This document shows positions 3,598-12,708 of a DNA stretch of 59,761 nucleotides, one piece after another. The notes under the pieces were generated by a model. The model worked only from the letters and a program-made list of their open reading frames with translations. It was not told the origin of the DNA and searched no databases. Position 1 is the stretch's first letter, and every line of letters starts with the position of its first letter. The stretch is from Pseudobdellovibrionaceae bacterium. Lineage in GTDB: Bacteria > Bdellovibrionota > Bdellovibrionia > Bdellovibrionales > Bdellovibrionaceae. A program made the translations under genes and the position numbers. The stretch covers positions 1 through 59,761 of the forward strand of contig JABWCN010000028.1 in assembly GCA_013359135.1 (NCBI GenBank). Reading direction: 5' to 3'.

Positions 3598-6500
3598 GTG
3601 AGAAGGGTTCAGTCCAGGGAAAGGGCTTTCAAGCAGCTCGAGCTTTTAGTTAAGAGATTTAAGAACGATCTTAAAAATGGTGTAATTTGTGGAGCTCATA
3701 ACAAGTCATTAAGTTATTTGAATATGTCTGAGGAGGGGAGGAAGTATTCTGAATCTCAAGTTAGGCAAGGCTATATACTGCCTATGTTTAGAGATGTATT
3801 AGGTTGGAATATTGATGATAGTGTAAATGAGGTGATTCCTGAGCTACATAACCATGAAGGATTTGCTGATTTTACTTTTGTCCGCTCGGGAAAGAAAAAG
3901 TTTTTACTTGAAACCAAGAAGCCCTCAGTAAATGTTGACCCAAATTCTCAATCTGGCAGAGATGCATTAAGGCAGGCAATAGGTTATTCCCGCTCAATTA
4001 AGGATATTCATATTGCTATAGTTTCAAATTTTGAGGTTTTAGTTTTTGGTCATGCATTTACAATGCCCAAGAAAGGTGAAGAGCTTGAAAACTCACTTGG
4101 CTGGTTTCACTTTACGGATTTTCTTTCGGAGGAGGCTTTTGAAAAATTATGGGAGTTTCGGTATGAAAGAGCTGGTGCACTGGACTTTGGGAAAAAACTT
4201 TTTGATGAAATAGACCGGAGACTTATATCTCAATACAAGCCAATTGATGAGAACCTTCTTGATGATTTAAAAAATTTAAGAGTTCTAATAGCCAATAGCC
4301 TTAAACTAAAGACAAGTAGTCTTTCAAAAATAGAAGAATCAGTACAGCTTTTTATAAATAGGATAATTTTTATAAGGGTTTTGGAAGATAGAGGTATCAT
4401 TTCAAAATCAATTTTCGATATTATAGCAAAAAAAGATTTATGGAATGAACTGGGAAAGTTAATTGATAATGTATGTGCAAAGTTTCCAGTTGGTGTTTTA
4501 AATAGAAGCAAAGGCACCCTTCTGGACCAGCATGGTATTTCAATTGATGATGAAAATCTTAAAAGTATATTACTAATGTTTTATAATAGGGGCCCAAGAT
4601 TTTTTCATGATTGTTATGATTTTAAGTATATCCCCTCAGATATTCTTGGTTACGCATACGAACATAGCATTGCTTATGAACTTAATATAGATAAAAAAAC
4701 TAAAAAATTTAAACTCGAAAAGAAGAAGCTATATAAAAATGGCGTTCATTATACTCCTGCATATATCTGTTCAGAGCTTTCTAATACAAGCGTAGAAAGA
4801 GCCATTAAAAATTTGGGCAAGAGCGCTATTGATCTGGTTTGCTTTGATATTGCATGTGGGTCTGGATCTTTCTTAACCTCCCTTTATGATACAATATACA
4901 AAACTCAGGCAAAGAGTAGTACGAGTAGATTAGTTGAAGGAAGTGGACTTAAAGTCTTGAGCTTAAAGGATCGAAAGTTTATTCTAGAGTCTTGTATCTT
5001 TGGTATAGATATTGACTATTCTGCTGTTCAAATTACGAAGCTGTGTTTATATCTGAAATTCTTTGAGAACTTTCCAGATGCAGATTTGGATAAGAAGTGT
5101 TCATTAATTCCTAATTTAGAAGAGAATATAGTTTTTGGTGATAGTCTTCTTGATACAAGTCAAAACTATATCCATCCGAAGACTTCACTACCGATAGGTA
5201 GTGAGAACGGAAAAGTTTTTAAGTACCTTAAAACAAAATCAATTGATGTAATTGTCGGGAACCCCCCTTATATAAAGGTCCAAGACTTAAAGAAAATAGA
5301 TAATATGCAAGTCGAGCATTACAAATTGGTATACTCAAAGACGCTATCAAAAGGCTCTATAGAGTTTGCAATTGGCTTCATTGAGAGAGCAATGAGTTTG
5401 TTGAATCCAAAGGGGGTTCTAGGGTATATTATCCCTAATAAAATTTTTAGAAACAAACAAGGCGAAAACTTAAGAAATTTTATTACAGATCCTAAGAATA
5501 GTTGTAATTTGTACCAGTTTATTGATTTCAATAGCTGTCAGCTGTTTGATGCAAGCATCTATACTTGTCTTCTTTATTTAGAACGAGAAAAGCCATTGAA
5601 GAAATTTAAGTGTTGTCAAATTTATGATCTTAAAGATCCTGCAGCAACGCTAAGTGAAATCAAAAAGACAAATAAAATATATCCAAGTAAGTATTTTGAG
5701 GTTGATTATTTGAATAATTCAGAATTAAGCAATCAGCCGTGGAGTCTTTTGGTTGGGCCTAAACGTGATCTTTTCAAGAGACTTAAGGCAAATTTTAAAT
5801 CTCTTGGTGAGGTGGCGGTTGACAAAAAGATATTTCAAGGGATTCCGACAGGGTCAGATAAGATCTTTCTGCTTAAAAAAGTAAGAGAAAAAAATGATAA
5901 CATATGGCTTGTGTATTCTGAAGCTCTCGAAATTACAATAAAGTATGAGCAAAATGAATTCGGTAGGTCAAAGTTAAAAAGCTCAATTTTTGAAATCGAG
6001 AGTAAGTATTTAAAACCTGTTTATCGTGGAAGTAGTGATTTAAAACCTTTTTTTAAGAGTACTTCAAATTCATATATATTATATCCATATGATGATGAAG
6101 GAAATCTAATAACAGATAAAGAATTTCTATCTTCAAAAGCATTTGCGTATTTAAATACAATAGAGAATAAAAAAGGAATCAAAAACACAAAGAATGTAAC
6201 TCTATTGCAAGGGCTTGAAGAAAGAGAAGATGGGAAATTTAAAGGAAAAAAATTTTATCAATATTCTAGGCCACAAAATTTAGAACTTTGGAGCAAATCT
6301 AAAATTATGATTCCCTATCTTGTAGAAAGATTTAATGCCCATTTGGACGAAGATGGTCATATGTTTGTGAATGTATCTACTGGGGGATACTGTATTTTGG
6401 CTCCAGAGAATAAAATTGATAGAATACACTTATTAGGCATATTAAATTCAAAAGTTTTTGATTTTATGGTGAAATGTTTTTCTGGTGACTTTAGAGGCGG

Positions 6501-6879
6501 TTGGATAGAATGTAATAAACATTATATTGGGGAAGCTCCAGTGCCGTTGCCCAGTAAAAAAGCTATTAGCAATAAAGAAATTGATAAAATTCAAACTTGT
6601 TTAAATGAACTGTATGAATCATCTGGTGCGTATTATTCAGAAGAACAGACGTCTTCAAACTTAAAACAGTTAAACATATTTTATAGAAACTCAGAGTGGT
6701 TGGACTTATGGTCTAAAAGTATCTACGGCTTATCAGATGAGGAGTATCAATTAATAGAATTTTATACCTCAGAAGAAATTAACGAAGATGAAATTTCTGA
6801 GTTACAAGTTGAATTGGCAAAAGACAAAAATAGAAAATCAAGTAAAGAAATTTCTAAGAATGGTATAAAAGCGGTTTAA
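3598..6879 (+). CDS. Type IIG restriction-modification enzyme (nuclease-methyltransferase fusion)
   Basis: A single chain of 1093 residues, the usual size for Eco57I/MmeI-like Type IIG enzymes that cut and methylate DNA. The N-terminal nuclease is PD-(D/E)XK: D91, E105-x-K107 (LLETKKPS), then a QxxxY-like RQAIGY near 125-130. A helical linker follows. The adenine-methyltransferase core has motif I FDIACGSGSF near residue 415 and motif IV GNPPYIKV near 553. The C-terminal part (about 720-1000) is the probable target-recognition domain. The start is GTG with a GGAGG site upstream. No separate specificity or methylase gene is needed, consistent with none being nearby. It stands alone upstream of the RT-nitrilase gene, 740 bases away. 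It is not evidently damaged. The recognition sequence cannot be read from the protein. Confidence 0.88.
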   Translation: MRRVQSRERAFKQLELLVKRFKNDLKNGVICGAHNKSLSYLNMSEEGRKYSESQVRQGYILPMFRDVLGWNIDDSVNEVIPELHNHEGFADFTFVRSGKKKFLLETKKPSVNVDPNSQSGRDALRQAIGYSRSIKDIHIAIVSNFEVLVFGHAFTMPKKGEELENSLGWFHFTDFLSEEAFEKLWEFRYERAGALDFGKKLFDEIDRRLISQYKPIDENLLDDLKNLRVLIANSLKLKTSSLSKIEESVQLFINRIIFIRVLEDRGIISKSIFDIIAKKDLWNELGKLIDNVCAKFPVGVLNRSKGTLLDQHGISIDDENLKSILLMFYNRGPRFFHDCYDFKYIPSDILGYAYEHSIAYELNIDKKTKKFKLEKKKLYKNGVHYTPAYICSELSNTSVERAIKNLGKSAIDLVCFDIACGSGSFLTSLYDTIYKTQAKSSTSRLVEGSGLKVLSLKDRKFILESCIFGIDIDYSAVQITKLCLYLKFFENFPDADLDKKCSLIPNLEENIVFGDSLLDTSQNYIHPKTSLPIGSENGKVFKYLKTKSIDVIVGNPPYIKVQDLKKIDNMQVEHYKLVYSKTLSKGSIEFAIGFIERAMSLLNPKGVLGYIIPNKIFRNKQGENLRNFITDPKNSCNLYQFIDFNSCQLFDASIYTCLLYLEREKPLKKFKCCQIYDLKDPAATLSEIKKTNKIYPSKYFEVDYLNNSELSNQPWSLLVGPKRDLFKRLKANFKSLGEVAVDKKIFQGIPTGSDKIFLLKKVREKNDNIWLVYSEALEITIKYEQNEFGRSKLKSSIFEIESKYLKPVYRGSSDLKPFFKSTSNSYILYPYDDEGNLITDKEFLSSKAFAYLNTIENKKGIKNTKNVTLLQGLEEREDGKFKGKKFYQYSRPQNLELWSKSKIMIPYLVERFNAHLDEDGHMFVNVSTGGYCILAPENKIDRIHLLGILNSKVFDFMVKCFSGDFRGGWIECNKHYIGEAPVPLPSKKAISNKEIDKIQTCLNELYESSGAYYSEEQTSSNLKQLNIFYRNSEWLDLWSKSIYGLSDEEYQLIEFYTSEEINEDEISELQVELAKDKNRKSSKEISKNGIKAV

Positions 6880-7021
6880 CTTTACTTCCATACCTTTCTT
6901 TAAAGGTCTTCTTTATTAAGAAGATAGCTAACTCACGTGCTGAGCTTGAATTGCAATGAGACTCATTAGCATCTCGCAAAGTTTTTTTAATCAGAGTTAA
7001 GTGTTCTTTCTTAATTTTCAA
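6854..7021 (-). CDS. Possible small helical protein or gene remnant
   Basis: A 55-codon frame (TTG start at 7021) reads like real protein: KIKKEHLTLIKKTLRDAN near the start and SARELAIFLIKKTFKERYG near the end, with amphipathic helices and balanced charge. It overlaps the last 26 bases of the restriction enzyme gene on the other strand. There is no ATG and the ribosome site is weak, so it may be the 3' remnant of a longer gene lost when the block was assembled. I do not recognise a family. Confidence 0.35.
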   Translation of the reverse strand: MKIKKEHLTLIKKTLRDANESHCNSSSARELAIFLIKKTFKERYGSKVKPLLYHS

Positions 7022-7620
7022 GATGACGATCTTTCTTTGAGTAATAATTATTTAATTAACTTAAACTTTATTAATCTTTTAAAATTAAATCTTAATAGGA
7101 ATCAAACTATAGATTTAGGGTGATAATTTTTACAATTTGTGATGCGGCGCAAAATAAAAATCTTAAGTGTGAAATTTATCAAAAAATAGCCTTGAGTTGC
7201 AAAGCACGTAGTACTACCCAAGCAGTTTAGTTACTACACCAAGTTCTTTATAGAGCAGCTTGATAAATTATTTGAATGTGAAAGTGCTTATAAAACAATA
7301 ATATTATCTAGCAGCGTATTCAGTTAACTATTGAAAATGCGAACAGTTCACTTGCTTTAAAGTTTTGACATATTTTAACAGTATTAGATTGCATGGGGCT
7401 ATTAGTTACTGCCTTCAATGCGAAGCTTTAATTTTTTTCTTTTGAGAAAATTCATCTAATAATGAAAATTCAAGGTTGCGTGTGGTATCTTTTTGCAAAT
7501 TCTATAATCTATCCTAATTTCGACAGACCAATGTGCAGTTATCTAAAAAGTAATAGAGACTACTTTGAATATATTTTATAAAGTAACTTAATGAATTTAT
7601 AAAAAAGAAAGGTAGTTTTT
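7022..7620 (+). other. Gene-free leader region upstream of the RT-nitrilase gene
   Basis: About 600 bases lie without a convincing reading frame on either strand, directly upstream of a defence reverse transcriptase. A TTGACA hexamer sits at 7365-7370, but no good -10 box follows at normal spacing. A 10-bp inverted repeat enclosing nested pairings lies at 7173-7269. Some DRT-type RTs (DRT2, DRT9) depend on an RNA encoded next to the RT. Whether this region makes such an RNA is unproven. Confidence 0.4.
7173..7269 (+). repeat. Inverted repeat enclosing a possible structured RNA
   Basis: Arms aatttatcaa (7173-7182) and ttgataaatt (7260-7269) are perfect complements. Inside are the self-complementary gtagtactac and, about 20 bases later, gttactac, which can pair with gtagt. 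This suggests a nested fold of about 97 nt. It is the best candidate in the leader region for a non-coding RNA, on weak evidence. Confidence 0.35.
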
Positions 7621-10600
7621 GTGAATGATCAAGATTCTGCGTGGCTAATTAATAAAATACAAATCTTTTTAAAAAGAGAAATTTACTTTCAAACATTAGA
7701 CTTGGGAATTGTAACCTCAGGTCTGAAGTATTCATTCACTAGAGCTAAAAATTTTGATGAACTTAAGTTACAACTTGAAAAAATGGGGTTAGATAATACG
7801 ATTAAGTTTGTTAGAAAAGGGTCTTCTCATAAAGATTATAGATACTTCGAGTATCCTCCACTAAGCTTTCAATGTGAGTCCCTTTTTAAGTGTTGGAGTG
7901 AGATTTTAAAAATTCAAAAGGAATCAGGAGAGGATCTAACAAAGCCGATAAAATACCAAAGGGAGCTCCAGTTTTTAGACCCATATGAAGATTCAGGTGA
8001 AAATGATGAGAAATCTTTATTAGACTTCGGACGAAACTCTTATGGGAATAAACCAAATTTAAACGTTAGAATTGAGACGCCTGAAAAGATTTCACTTCAG
8101 GAAGAAGAGGAGCGAAAATCATTTCCACTAAATCTAGATTTTAAGTATGAATATAACTCATTTCGAAAGCGTATTGTAAGAACATGCGAGAAAGTTACCG
8201 CCAAAAAAAATGGGCGTGATATTATATTTATACAAACAGATCTTAGAGATTTTTTTCATAAGATAGAAATAATTCCGTTAATTCAATTTTTTAAAGAAAA
8301 CTATACTTGGGCAAAAAATATTCAAGAGTATTTAGGTAGGCTGAATAAAGAACATAGTCTTGATTCTCTACCGATTGGTTGGGTCTTGAGTCGATTTTTA
8401 TCAAATATCGTCATCCAACATTTTCACAAAAGTTTAAAAGATCATCTTGAAAGAAATCTTATAAGCTCATTAGGAAAAGAAATAGAATACGCTGCCTATC
8501 AGCCCATTTCGATCCCTCAAAAGTTGGATCTTAGACTTGAAGATATTATAAGTTATGTTGATGACTTTGTATTTCTTGTGTCGATACCAGAATTTAAAGA
8601 CATTAATGTTGATTCTGTGGCAAAAACTCTAATAAAAGAAGGGCAAAATTTAATAAACAAAGTGATCCCTGGTAATTCTTTATTCGAGTTATATCAAATC
8701 GAAGATAATAAAAACAAAGAAAGTAAAGCAAAAGTACATCGGATAGATATTGATTCAATTGCAATACTAAAATCAAATTTCGCATTTTTTAAAACTGCCG
8801 ATGAATATTTTTTAGACGATCCAGACATACGTGCTCGAATCGACGACGTTTTGCTGCCTAATGATAATGATTTAACAATGAACCACGGGCAGCAATTTAA
8901 ACGTAATCTAGCTGCTCTCCAAAAGTCGATTATAAACAAGCATAGCTTTAGTGCAAATGAAATTGACGACCTGTTGGCACATATTAAAGTGAAAATTGAG
9001 AAAACCGGAGCTAGATATATAAGAAGTGTTTTTGGATTACTTCGATTGCTTGTAATTACTTGCACAGACCAAAAAACTGTAAATAAAATTAGAGAAAAGT
9101 ATATAAAAGAAATTTTTTCAAAGTGTAAGAAAGATTTTAATTATTCAGCTGATTGGATAAAATTTTTTTCAGGGTATCTGCAATTTTTGAAATCTATTGA
9201 TTTCAAAGATAGAGATAGAGAAACCTATTTTCAACTACTTGGTGAGGCTATCAAGTTGATGAAAAAAAGAAGTATTTCTGATGAACAAATACTTCAGTTG
9301 ATCAAAAATGATTCTGTACTAAAAATAATTATAGAGAAATCGGTTGTATCTTTTAGAGCAAAAGCATTTTCACCTCTTTTAAAAGATTATAATACTCCAT
9401 TCTATAGATTTATTTATGAAAAACATGAAATGATTTTGTTTATTTGTAAAGTTATTAAACCTGATTTAAAGATAGCATTTGAGGAGAGTGATTATAGTTT
9501 TATATGGTTACATTTGGCAATTCAGAAACTGCAAAATAGCAACCAACCTTTCGATTTTACGCCTGTAATTACAAGTTTAAAAAAAATAGAAAAAGAGAAA
9601 GAGCAAGCGCAAGTATTATATTCTGCAGGAAGATTAGCAGCTAGAATTATTTTTCAAAAAACGCCAGAGCGAAAGCAATTTTTTGATTTAATGAGTAGCT
9701 TGCCCTATATAAATGATGAAATAATTGGAAAAATTGTAAGACTATATGAGCACGAAGAATCAATAACTACTTTTTTTAAAGTATCTGAACAGCAAAAAAT
9801 AATTATAGCCTATAAAACGCTAATTTTGCATGAGAATGCAGATATCATATATGAATTCTTTGGAAAACTAGAATTTCTACGAATGTTGGAAGTAATTGCG
9901 GGTTATTTTATTTCGCTAAGATTAAATGACGAGAATGATTTTTATCGATATATAATTTCACTCTTATTTAGAAAAGAATCTAATCTGATTAGTGCATGGG
10001 GTGCTTTGCCTCCTACATATAAAAAAACGGGTATTATTATAAGTGAAGTTCTCAAAGCAATTTTTATTCAGGATTCTAATTTAGATGATGCGACTGTTTT
10101 TACAAAGTTATTCCCTATGATAGAAAGCATTATCATGCCGTTTGCCGGAATGGGTGATGGTAGAAAGTCACTTAAAAGAAAAGACGGTTTTAGTTTGAGT
10201 CCGACGATTGTAGACCTAGATATTTTGTTTTCACTTTTCGACGGTGACACTGAGAAACAAAGATCTTTTAAGGTAACGGTTGCGCCACTCAGTATGAATA
10301 TAAATAAAGATTTGGATTGGAAAGATGGGTTTCAGTATAAAGATGCTGTGACACGAGTAATGGATGTAAAAATCAGGCATGCTATTGATGAAGCTATCAA
10401 GCAAAAATCAGCATTTTTAGTTCTTCCGGAATTGTGCATTCCAAGAAGATATTTACAATCGTATCTTCATCTATTAAGTGGGCACAGTATTATCCTTGTG
10501 GGGGGACTTGAGTATGCTATCGACTCGAATTCAGTAGCGTATAATTCCACTATTATATCGGTTCCGATTTCTCGTACAAATAGCCCCGGCGGCAGACAGT

Positions 10601-11142
10601 ATATGGCGTTTGAACAAATAAAGAACTTTCCCTCCGCAGAGGAATCATTTCATCTAGATCAGGCAGGTTTTAAATATCGTCATGGTGATACGATTTACGT
10701 TTTTAAATCGTCCTTCTGGGGAGACTTTGCGGTTTTAACATGTTCGGATTTTTTATCACTAGGGTTTAGATGGTTGCTTCAAGGAGAGGTTCAATCAATT
10801 TTTGTACCTGCCCAAAATGTAGATTCAGTAACCTATGATCATATATCTGAATCATGTATTCGGGATTTACACTGCATGGCTATCGTGTGTAATAATCCGA
10901 GTACGGGGAGCAGTCATTGCTACGCGCCTTATTATGACAAACGCAGGAGGGAAATTTTTAAAAGGATTGGGGATTCAGAGCCAGAATTACATACCTTTAT
11001 TGTTAACCCTTTAGTTTTTAAGAAAACTCAGGCAAATGCTCTAACTCTTCATCCATTTAGAAACCCAGATAACAAAAACGATAAAAATTGGGGCGAGTAT
11101 ACTGAATTTAAACAGTTGCCCCCTGATTGGAAGAGCTGGTAG
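7621..11142 (+). CDS. Defence reverse transcriptase-nitrilase fusion (DRT1/UG1-like)
   Basis: A protein of 1173 residues. The RT domain lies in about residues 170-400: motif A IQTDLRDFFHKIE with aspartate near 205, motif B LPIGWVLSRFLSN near 250, and motif C SYVDDFVF near 310. A long helical region (about 400-880) follows. The C-terminal domain is a carbon-nitrogen hydrolase (nitrilase fold) with the E-K-C triad visible: E in VLPELC near 936, K in QIKNFPSAEE near 1000, and C in LTCSDF near 1040. An RT fused to a nitrilase is the signature of DRT type 1 antiphage systems (UG1 class). There is no maturase, integrase or group II intron part. The start is GTG with an AAAGGTAG site. It forms a two-gene operon with the exonuclease 21 bases downstream. 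All catalytic residues look intact. The related UG5-type nitrilase fusion is the main alternative. Confidence 0.88.
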   Translation: MNDQDSAWLINKIQIFLKREIYFQTLDLGIVTSGLKYSFTRAKNFDELKLQLEKMGLDNTIKFVRKGSSHKDYRYFEYPPLSFQCESLFKCWSEILKIQKESGEDLTKPIKYQRELQFLDPYEDSGENDEKSLLDFGRNSYGNKPNLNVRIETPEKISLQEEEERKSFPLNLDFKYEYNSFRKRIVRTCEKVTAKKNGRDIIFIQTDLRDFFHKIEIIPLIQFFKENYTWAKNIQEYLGRLNKEHSLDSLPIGWVLSRFLSNIVIQHFHKSLKDHLERNLISSLGKEIEYAAYQPISIPQKLDLRLEDIISYVDDFVFLVSIPEFKDINVDSVAKTLIKEGQNLINKVIPGNSLFELYQIEDNKNKESKAKVHRIDIDSIAILKSNFAFFKTADEYFLDDPDIRARIDDVLLPNDNDLTMNHGQQFKRNLAALQKSIINKHSFSANEIDDLLAHIKVKIEKTGARYIRSVFGLLRLLVITCTDQKTVNKIREKYIKEIFSKCKKDFNYSADWIKFFSGYLQFLKSIDFKDRDRETYFQLLGEAIKLMKKRSISDEQILQLIKNDSVLKIIIEKSVVSFRAKAFSPLLKDYNTPFYRFIYEKHEMILFICKVIKPDLKIAFEESDYSFIWLHLAIQKLQNSNQPFDFTPVITSLKKIEKEKEQAQVLYSAGRLAARIIFQKTPERKQFFDLMSSLPYINDEIIGKIVRLYEHEESITTFFKVSEQQKIIIAYKTLILHENADIIYEFFGKLEFLRMLEVIAGYFISLRLNDENDFYRYIISLLFRKESNLISAWGALPPTYKKTGIIISEVLKAIFIQDSNLDDATVFTKLFPMIESIIMPFAGMGDGRKSLKRKDGFSLSPTIVDLDILFSLFDGDTEKQRSFKVTVAPLSMNINKDLDWKDGFQYKDAVTRVMDVKIRHAIDEAIKQKSAFLVLPELCIPRRYLQSYLHLLSGHSIILVGGLEYAIDSNSVAYNSTIISVPISRTNSPGGRQYMAFEQIKNFPSAEESFHLDQAGFKYRHGDTIYVFKSSFWGDFAVLTCSDFLSLGFRWLLQGEVQSIFVPAQNVDSVTYDHISESCIRDLHCMAIVCNNPSTGSSHCYAPYYDKRRREIFKRIGDSEPELHTFIVNPLVFKKTQANALTLHPFRNPDNKNDKNWGEYTEFKQLPPDWKSW

Positions 11143-11163
11143 AGTTTTGACAATGGAGATAAA

Positions 11164-11868
11164 ATGTATCTTTTAGGTATAGATCTAGAAACCACAGGAG
11201 TTGATCCTGAAAAAGATCAAATTATAGAAATAGGTGCTATTCTTTGGGATACTGATTTAAGTCAACCTATTGAAATGTTTAGTAAATTAATTCAAAACAG
11301 TGGTCTCGCGCTTCCACAGATGGTGAAAGAATTAACAGGAATCACCGATAATCAAATTGAAAAATTTGGAAGTCCTTTAAAGTCTGTTATTGATGAATTA
11401 CATGAACTTTCTAAGAAGTGTGAATTTTTGGTTGGACATAATGCGATTTTTTTTGATAGTAAATTTTTAGATCGTGCTTGTACTGAATTAGGGTTACGTT
11501 GTTTAGGTCCAAACTGGATTGACACATTAATTGATGTTAATTTTCCAACACATATGCGAACTAGAAAGTTAAGTCATTTAGCAGCTGAGCACAAAATTTC
11601 TTTGTTCAATCACCACAGAGCTGTTTTTGATGTATTGACAATGTTTCAAATTCTATCCAGGTATGACATTCAAGAGATTGCCGATCGGGCATCGAGTGAA
11701 TTAGTTCAAGTCGTAGCCAAGGTGAGTATAGAAAATAAAAATCAAGCATCCGAATTAGGATTTAGGTGGAACCCGAAAGATAAAATATGGTCAAAGCTGA
11801 TGCGGCAATTTGATATTGAAAAAGCCAAATTTCCTTTTAGTGTTCAAGTTGTCAAACATGAATTCTGA
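11164..11868 (+). CDS. DEDDh 3'-5' exonuclease paired with the DRT1-like RT
   Basis: A 234-residue protein with a DnaQ/PolC-epsilon-like exonuclease. ExoI GIDLETTG gives D and E near residues 6 and 8, ExoII is GHNAIFFD near 97-104, and ExoIII is HHRAVFD near 149-155, giving H and the last D. All DEDDh residues are present. The last 50 residues form a small module (LGFRWNPKDKIW, then FPFSVQVV) seen at the C-end of some bacterial epsilon-like exonucleases. An ATG follows a GGAG site, 21 bases after the RT stop, so the two genes are surely co-transcribed. It probably trims DNA 3' ends, perhaps acting on the RT's cDNA or phage DNA. That pairing is inference. It could also be an unrelated passenger. 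Confidence 0.85.
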   Translation: MYLLGIDLETTGVDPEKDQIIEIGAILWDTDLSQPIEMFSKLIQNSGLALPQMVKELTGITDNQIEKFGSPLKSVIDELHELSKKCEFLVGHNAIFFDSKFLDRACTELGLRCLGPNWIDTLIDVNFPTHMRTRKLSHLAAEHKISLFNHHRAVFDVLTMFQILSRYDIQEIADRASSELVQVVAKVSIENKNQASELGFRWNPKDKIWSKLMRQFDIEKAKFPFSVQVVKHEF

Positions 11869-12012
11869 TTTATAAATTGAAACTATTTTGTTTTTTTCAA
11901 TCTTTAAAAAACTAATTTACTTATGATTTCAGTATAGTCCTCTTTAATATGCAAAGGATAATCTATTTCCTTTGGATTTTATTATATTTGTATTCTAAAT
12001 AAGAACAAATTT

Positions 12013-12198
12013 TTATTTAGAATGATTTATTTCTTTAAGAATTTTTGGATTTCCCCAACTTGATGATCGGGATTCATGGAGCACTTGAGCTTGAGCTTGA
12101 GCTTTCCAGATCCACTTCTGTAAATCGTCGATTTTTCCGACAGCAGCGACGGCAACGACAACACTTAAAATAAATGGCATTAATTTGTCGAAGTTCAT
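12013..12198 (-). CDS. Small membrane-anchored hypothetical protein
   Basis: A 61-residue protein with one hydrophobic segment near the N-terminus (MPFILSVVVAVAAVG), followed by a polar, Gln/Ser-rich tail (IDDLQKWIWKAQAQAQ). It looks membrane-anchored with a short periplasmic or cytoplasmic tail. An ATG follows a good ribosome site (aaaggggggag). It lies 12 bases after the recombinase-like pseudogene on the same strand and may have been co-transcribed with it. I do not recognise a function. Confidence 0.5.
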   Translation of the reverse strand: MNFDKLMPFILSVVVAVAAVGKIDDLQKWIWKAQAQAQVLHESRSSSWGNPKILKEINHSK

Positions 12199-12210
12199 AC
12201 TCCCCCCTTT

Positions 12211-12708
12211 TTAGAGAACGATTAATTTTTTTTCAAAGCGTTCCAGAATGTTCAAGACGGTTTGCCTTTTCCATTCCTTTAGGTTTCTGGTTTTTAGTTT
12301 TTTGGAATTTAAATACTTGGTAATGGTCGAAGCTGTTTGCCCCAACTTCCACTGTTGCCATATAATTTGTAGCGTTGGAAATTCTTTTGGGTTCTTCTGA
12401 AGCCTACCTTCAAGGTACATATACCCAAAGGGGGGTGGAGTAGAACTTTTGAAGTTTTGGCGCGAAATCTGCTCAGCACTGACGGACTTGTTTGGTCGTA
12501 ACGTCATACCGCCTTTTACAAGCTGGCTGCGAATAGTAGTCCAAGGAAATCCAGTCTGAACTGAAATCTCAGTGAGAGAGTATCCTTGCTGATAAAGTGG
12601 GCTACAAATTTCAAAAATTCGAGAAATATCGTCTTGAAAAAGTTCAACGAAATCATGTATATAATAATAGTTGCAGGTTGTCGGAAGATGGCTACCATTT
12701 TCAGGCTT
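12211..12708 (-). pseudogene. Recombinase-domain protein, 5' end lost or frameshifted
   Basis: One open frame of 165 codons has no ATG, GTG or TTG until codon 69 (ATG at 12507), yet the upstream part is clearly coding: YYYIHDFVELFQDDISRIFEI, then SPLYQQGYSLTEISVQTG resembling a helix-turn-helix. The downstream part is like the Recombinase domain (PF07508-type): PPPFGYMYLEGRLQKNPKEF, later NSKKLKTRNLKEWKRQTV. There is no serine-recombinase catalytic domain. The frame is closed by TAA at 12709-12711, and a different frame (12516-12866) overlaps it, so the true start was probably lost by a frameshift near 12700. Together with the left recombinase it brackets the defence block. Confidence 0.6.

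Follow-up and report, generated by a model that had tools for sequence, protein, structure and literature searches.

The window analysed here, a 59,761-nt stretch of DNA from a Pseudobdellovibrionaceae bacterium, is the entire contig C59 of a 3.84-Mb genome. Positions 7621-11868 contain a gene for a reverse transcriptase (RT) fused to a nitrilase, followed on the same strand by a gene for a 3′-5′ exonuclease. The features of this locus are:

7621-11142, plus strand: RT-helical-nitrilase fusion, 1173 aa; GTG start, preceded by an SD sequence, GAAAGG, at 7607-7612
8152-8643, plus strand: RT domain match, residues 178-341 (Pfam RVT_1, E=7.5e-8)
8554-8565, plus strand: YVDD codons of the RT active site, residues 312-315; D314/D315 align with the YVDD of DRT1
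10255-11133, plus strand: C-terminal nitrilase domain, residues 879-1171 (PADLOC UG5-nitrilase, E=5.6e-46; RTasNitrilase, E=2.3e-36)
10741-10743, plus strand: codon for the catalytic cysteine C1041, which aligns with C1116 of DRT1
11143-11163, no strand: 21-base intergenic stretch, with an SD sequence, GGAG, at 11155-11158
11164-11868, plus strand: DEDDh (DnaQ-like) 3′-5′ exonuclease, 234 aa; ATG start, intact ORF
11176-11655, plus strand: exonuclease domain, residues 5-164 (Pfam RNase_T, E=4e-23), with D7, E9, D98, H151 and D156 intact
11701-11805, plus strand: C-terminal beta-alpha-beta-beta module, residues 180-214, with the motif GFRWNPKDKIW (AlphaFold model and alignment)

Both ORFs were intact, and the distance between them was exactly the 21 bases of the original prediction. 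The GGAG lies 5 nt ahead of the exonuclease ATG, and no plus-strand terminator-like site was predicted between the two genes. From this arrangement we infer their co-transcription. A gene coding for a type IIG restriction-methyltransferase (3598-6879; E=3.5e-128) was found immediately upstream of the RT-nitrilase, while recombinase genes were found at 87-1537 and, on the other side of the locus, a recombinase fragment at 12211-12507. Given the type IIG enzyme and the flanking recombinase genes, the region looks like a mobile defence island.

The RT-nitrilase consists of the RT domain, a long helical middle part and the nitrilase domain. In an alignment of seven homologues the RT aspartates D314/D315 were invariant, as were E937, K1001, E1008 and C1041 of the nitrilase; the YVDD motif and the intact E-K-C triad originally read in this protein are thus present and conserved. 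An AlphaFold model of the RT, built from five sequences, was poor (pLDDT 50) and was set aside. Class 3 UG/Abi RTs are multidomain proteins that join an RT domain to a nitrilase or phosphohydrolase domain (PMC13275509), and the RVT_1 and nitrilase domains found in a single ORF, with intact residues, place the protein in this class. DRT1 (UG1; PDB 9YFD; PMC13275509) is likewise an RT-alpha-helical-nitrilase fusion, of 1229 rather than 1173 residues, and its chain was the sole significant PDB match of the RT-nitrilase family profile (E=1.2e-7). Only this alignment profile reached DRT1; the window RT used as a lone query against the PDB and viral contigs gave no match. HMMER aligned YVDD to YVDD (the equivalents of D324/D325) and C1041 to C1116 of the solved structure (9yfd), in an alignment that stops short of the region holding the DRT1 priming serine, S402, a residue not conserved among other class 3 DRTs (PMC13275509). 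A further likeness to DRT1 is that no known RNA family was found near the locus, the Rfam search of 6700-12700 returning nothing beyond one chance match.

The protein had been predicted to be a DRT1 variant. The active-site alignments agree with this, but membership of DRT1 fails: the best of the PADLOC Drt1a profiles, PDLC03745, gave only a partial match of 66.8 bits, and PDLC02171 had no match in the window genome (G000). The nearest nitrilase domain is that of UG5 (DRT5-type class 3), although the 155 bits scored by the window protein against the UG5 profile, derived mostly from the nitrilase, compare with 700-1017 for true UG5 members; the RT region gave no member match. In the RT tree, which has long branches, the window-clade RT-nitrilases formed one clade apart from UG5 (support 100/100). 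Since by profile the protein is neither DRT1 (UG1) nor UG5, 'DRT1 variant' is a loose label. Judging from sequence comparison, the RT-nitrilase probably works like DRT1 but represents a separate class 3 lineage. It also differs in its neighbours: DRT1 is described as a single gene or with the membrane partner drt1b, and the UG5 comparators had no exonuclease neighbour, whereas an exonuclease accompanies the window RT.

This exonuclease is a DEDDh protein, with a DnaQ fold and all three Exo motifs, I (D-E), II (D) and III (H-D). Its D7, E9, D98, H151 and D156 were invariant across 23 homologues, and its AlphaFold model reached a pLDDT of 93.6; the top solved-structure matches (Foldseek) were DinG, DnaQ, PolC, Pol III epsilon, 3'hExo and ExoI. 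The extra C-terminal module originally noticed is real, forming in the model a beta-alpha-beta-beta element at about residues 180-214; it contains an invariant tryptophan pair and shows a weak, below cut-off likeness to DUF5710. PADLOC profiles were matched for PDC-S48 (E=7e-14) and for RTasSbcB (E=3e-7, 27.6 bits, residues 6-106), the latter through the general DEDDh fold only. As PADLOC catalogues both RTasSbcB and RTasPolA, RT-associated exonuclease and polymerase genes respectively, the idea of an exonuclease beside a DRT has some precedent. In a full-text search limited to a collection lacking much of the subscription literature, the main survey of UG/Abi RTs among it, no paper was found to describe a DnaQ-type partner for an RT-nitrilase.

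The presence of related nuclease profiles (PDC-S48 and the ExoI-like RT partner RTasSbcB) among defence candidates would fit an exonuclease that, once activated, acts as effector or sensor on phage or cell nucleic acid. We consider this improbable, as a nitrilase with intact catalytic residues is already an effector, and the close relatives of the exonuclease are ordinary chromosomal genes or accompany polA.

A search of 369 genomes of the phylum, a set that includes Bdellovibrionales and Bacteriovoracia records, identified five RT-nitrilases of the window clade. Three of them (window, G058 and G139) were directly adjoined by an exonuclease of the family, placed downstream on the same strand in the window and upstream, head-to-head, in the other two. 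No adjacent exonuclease was detected in the neighbourhoods of the remaining two, G102 and G120, and the partner is therefore frequent but not universal. G102 carries a family exonuclease on a contig other than that of its RT-nitrilase (C3, 6879-7652; L142), which could serve in trans, while none was found anywhere in the G120 genome. Among Leptospira-type records, the exonuclease lay next to the RT-nitrilase in all seven (five from plasmids and two contigs from a viral collection), with a 12-bp gap in the plasmid pair; the window and Leptospira pairs share ~29% identity in the RT and ~37% in the exonuclease. Broad sampling covered one phylum only, and a search of genome contigs with the RT-alignment profile returned just two loci, both among those from the phylum; the survey is thus thin beyond Bdellovibrionota and Leptospira.

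The exonuclease family itself is common, with about 118 copies in the 369 genomes. Of these, 75 were inspected for context: three lay by an RT-nitrilase, one by an AbiP2 RT, three behind polA, and 68 in unrelated surroundings. Rough arithmetic assuming ~3200 genes per genome puts the chance of three adjacencies in five at ~1e-10; adjacency to the rare RT-nitrilases is far above chance. At E<=1e-25 no family member was found in five same-genus genomes, and in G058 the RT-linked exonuclease is additional to the family's ordinary chromosomal copy, which rules out a housekeeping gene present here by accident.

These results bear on what the original prediction had set out beforehand. Recurrence of the pair in unrelated genomes, named as the test of a dedicated two-gene unit, was observed in Bdellovibrionota and Leptospira, and together with the same-genus result it upholds the unit. 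In the five same-genus genomes, searched at E<=1e-25, the exonuclease did not turn out to be a common chromosomal gene of sister strains. The other counter-indication named, related RT-nitrilases lacking the neighbour, applies to G102 and G120, but not to the window, G058, G139 or Leptospira.

The origin of the partner was examined in an exonuclease tree of 59 sequences, which has long branches. The closest relative found of the window exonuclease was a copy in G263 (50% identity, support 100/96), located 72 bp downstream of an AbiP2 RT (PADLOC E=4e-198). AbiP2 belongs to another RT class (class 1 UG/Abi) and has no nitrilase; class 1 RTs too make protein-primed untemplated DNA (PMC13275509). 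Since no exonuclease was present at the other AbiP2 loci inspected, this pairing, found on a 4.8-kb contig, is a single case. The AbiP2 RT, the exonuclease and an AAA ATPase are consecutive and on the same strand there (C17, 736-4714; L187), an array that is possibly an AbiP2 variant with a nuclease partner.

AU tests rejected the grouping of all RT-nitrilase-linked exonucleases in one clade (p=1e-53), ruling out a single ancestral RT-exonuclease pair. A grouping of the G058 and G139 exonucleases was also rejected (p=8e-5), despite their RTs being sisters (100/100), and that of the window and Leptospira exonucleases weakly so (p=0.02). These rejections indicate repeated recruitment, with the exonuclease beside the RT newly acquired or replaced on some three occasions or more. 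When G263 was added to the window and Leptospira, the grouping was not rejected (p=0.34), and these three exonucleases could be of single origin.

The type IIG gene upstream, the flanking recombinase genes and the two clade members lacking the exonuclease would suit plain neighbours in a defence island, devoid of joint function. That account is very improbable, already disfavoured by recurrence in distant genomes, repeated recruitment, the two orientations and the involvement of a second RT class. A functional link of some kind between RT-nitrilase and exonuclease is, in our assessment, highly likely, and the homologues and neighbourhood point to the pair being a probable anti-phage system.

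Relatives of the exonuclease were also found directly behind polA, at 20-39 bp, in three genomes (G097, G082 and G095; L182, L183 and L184). The PolA from the one such locus scanned contained the Pfam 5′-3′ exonuclease and polymerase domains and no 3′-5′ exonuclease domain, so the adjacent exonuclease may be a separate proofreading subunit. The family further includes phrog_192, annotated 'DNA polymerase exonuclease subunit'. Together with the Foldseek matches to DinG, DnaQ, PolC and Pol III epsilon, these phage and polA-linked members would be expected if the window exonuclease were a polymerase accessory, an RT-bound proofreading or processivity subunit that shapes the DNA product during synthesis and plays no antitoxin role. 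Template-free synthesis, though, leaves nothing to proofread, and the swaps between exonuclease lineages speak against a tight co-evolved complex; we regard such a role as distinctly unlikely.

Other DRTs depend on nucleases of their host. E. coli needs ExoI to tolerate DRT9 (PMC12483538) and RecBCD to tolerate DRT3 (PMC13174585), the nuclease in both cases limiting, as proposed here, the accumulation of RT-made DNA; in those systems it is a host gene, whereas in the window it is encoded next to the RT. With DRT1 adducts, ExoI leaves 17-30 nt in vitro, the same length as seen on natively purified protein (PMC13275509). A scan for ExoI (Pfam PF08411; E. coli positive as a control) gave no match above cut-off in 12 genomes, including those of all five clade RT-nitrilase carriers.

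Our preferred explanation, to which we assign a probability of about 0.45, is that the locus encodes a class 3 DRT carrying its own 3′-5′ exonuclease, which shortens or removes the protein-primed DNA and thereby holds the nitrilase silent until infection. By analogy with DRT1 and DRT5, the RT domain would prime DNA on its own protein and extend it in the absence of a template, and the resulting ssDNA adducts would govern assembly and, through it, the nitrilase effector fused to the RT. The DEDDh exonuclease would stand in for the host nucleases that restrain other DRTs; with the adduct as its putative substrate, it would continually trim or erase the 3′ ends, which would keep the adducts short and the effector silent. 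Phage infection could overcome the exonuclease by blocking it, titrating it or outrunning it, or could shield the 3′ ends; either way the adducts would change, and the nitrilase would then be released, leading to abortive infection; the sign of this control and the defence phenotype are likewise presumed.

Consistent with this explanation are the single strand, 21-base gap and own SD of the exonuclease, the Leptospira and head-to-head G058/G139 pairs, the AbiP2-linked nearest relative, the polymerase partnerships of the family elsewhere (polA, phrog_192), the lack of ExoI in the 12 genomes, and the DRT9/ExoI, DRT3/RecBCD and DRT1/ExoI precedents. Similar exonucleases have been repeatedly acquired by related RTs; trimming is therefore probably part of the defence. 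Against it, G102 and G120 lack both an adjacent exonuclease and ExoI, 68 of the 75 exonuclease copies inspected in the phylum occupy ordinary contexts, and DRT1 is non-toxic in E. coli, where a single gene suffices, although ExoI is supplied there (PMC13275509).

The linkage evidence fits equally well an exonuclease acting as trigger, with adducts keeping the RT-nitrilase dormant until infection, when the exonuclease strips them and frees the nitrilase. DRT1 adducts do impose a dormant filament (PMC13275509). Nevertheless, the RT-dead DRT1 monomer is inactive, so full adduct removal should inactivate rather than release; moreover, ExoI leaves 17-30 nt of the DRT1 adduct protected, and constitutive co-expression would require an extra signal. 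A trigger thus appears unlikely.

For cells to survive RTs that constantly write DNA, DRT9 and DRT3 rely on host ExoI and RecBCD. If the trimming explanation is true, a dedicated 3′-5′ exonuclease makes this control genetically separable and directly testable, effector and restraint share one measurable substrate (the adduct), and the spread of such RTs into ExoI-less hosts is explained. More tentatively still, polymerase-partner DEDDh exonucleases might be a modular 'leash' captured independently by class 3 RT-nitrilases and AbiP2 in ExoI-less hosts; this would free DNA-writing immunity from host nucleases and make the exonuclease the point at which phage interference is sensed.

Some further loci were noted during the survey. 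A UG5-like RT-nitrilase, annotated as a hypothetical protein, adjoins an AbiE toxin-antitoxin pair on an E. coli plasmid (NZ_CP146678.1, 2960-8174; L179). The Leptospira plasmid RT-exonuclease pair lies shortly downstream of Rpn-family nuclease genes (L012, 3894-10199; L013, 4034-9986). Truncated Leptospira-type exonuclease remnants with no RT were found at two loci (L107, 6049-6324; L180, 5085-5552), one adjoining transposases; they are probably decayed copies of the RT-exonuclease pair.
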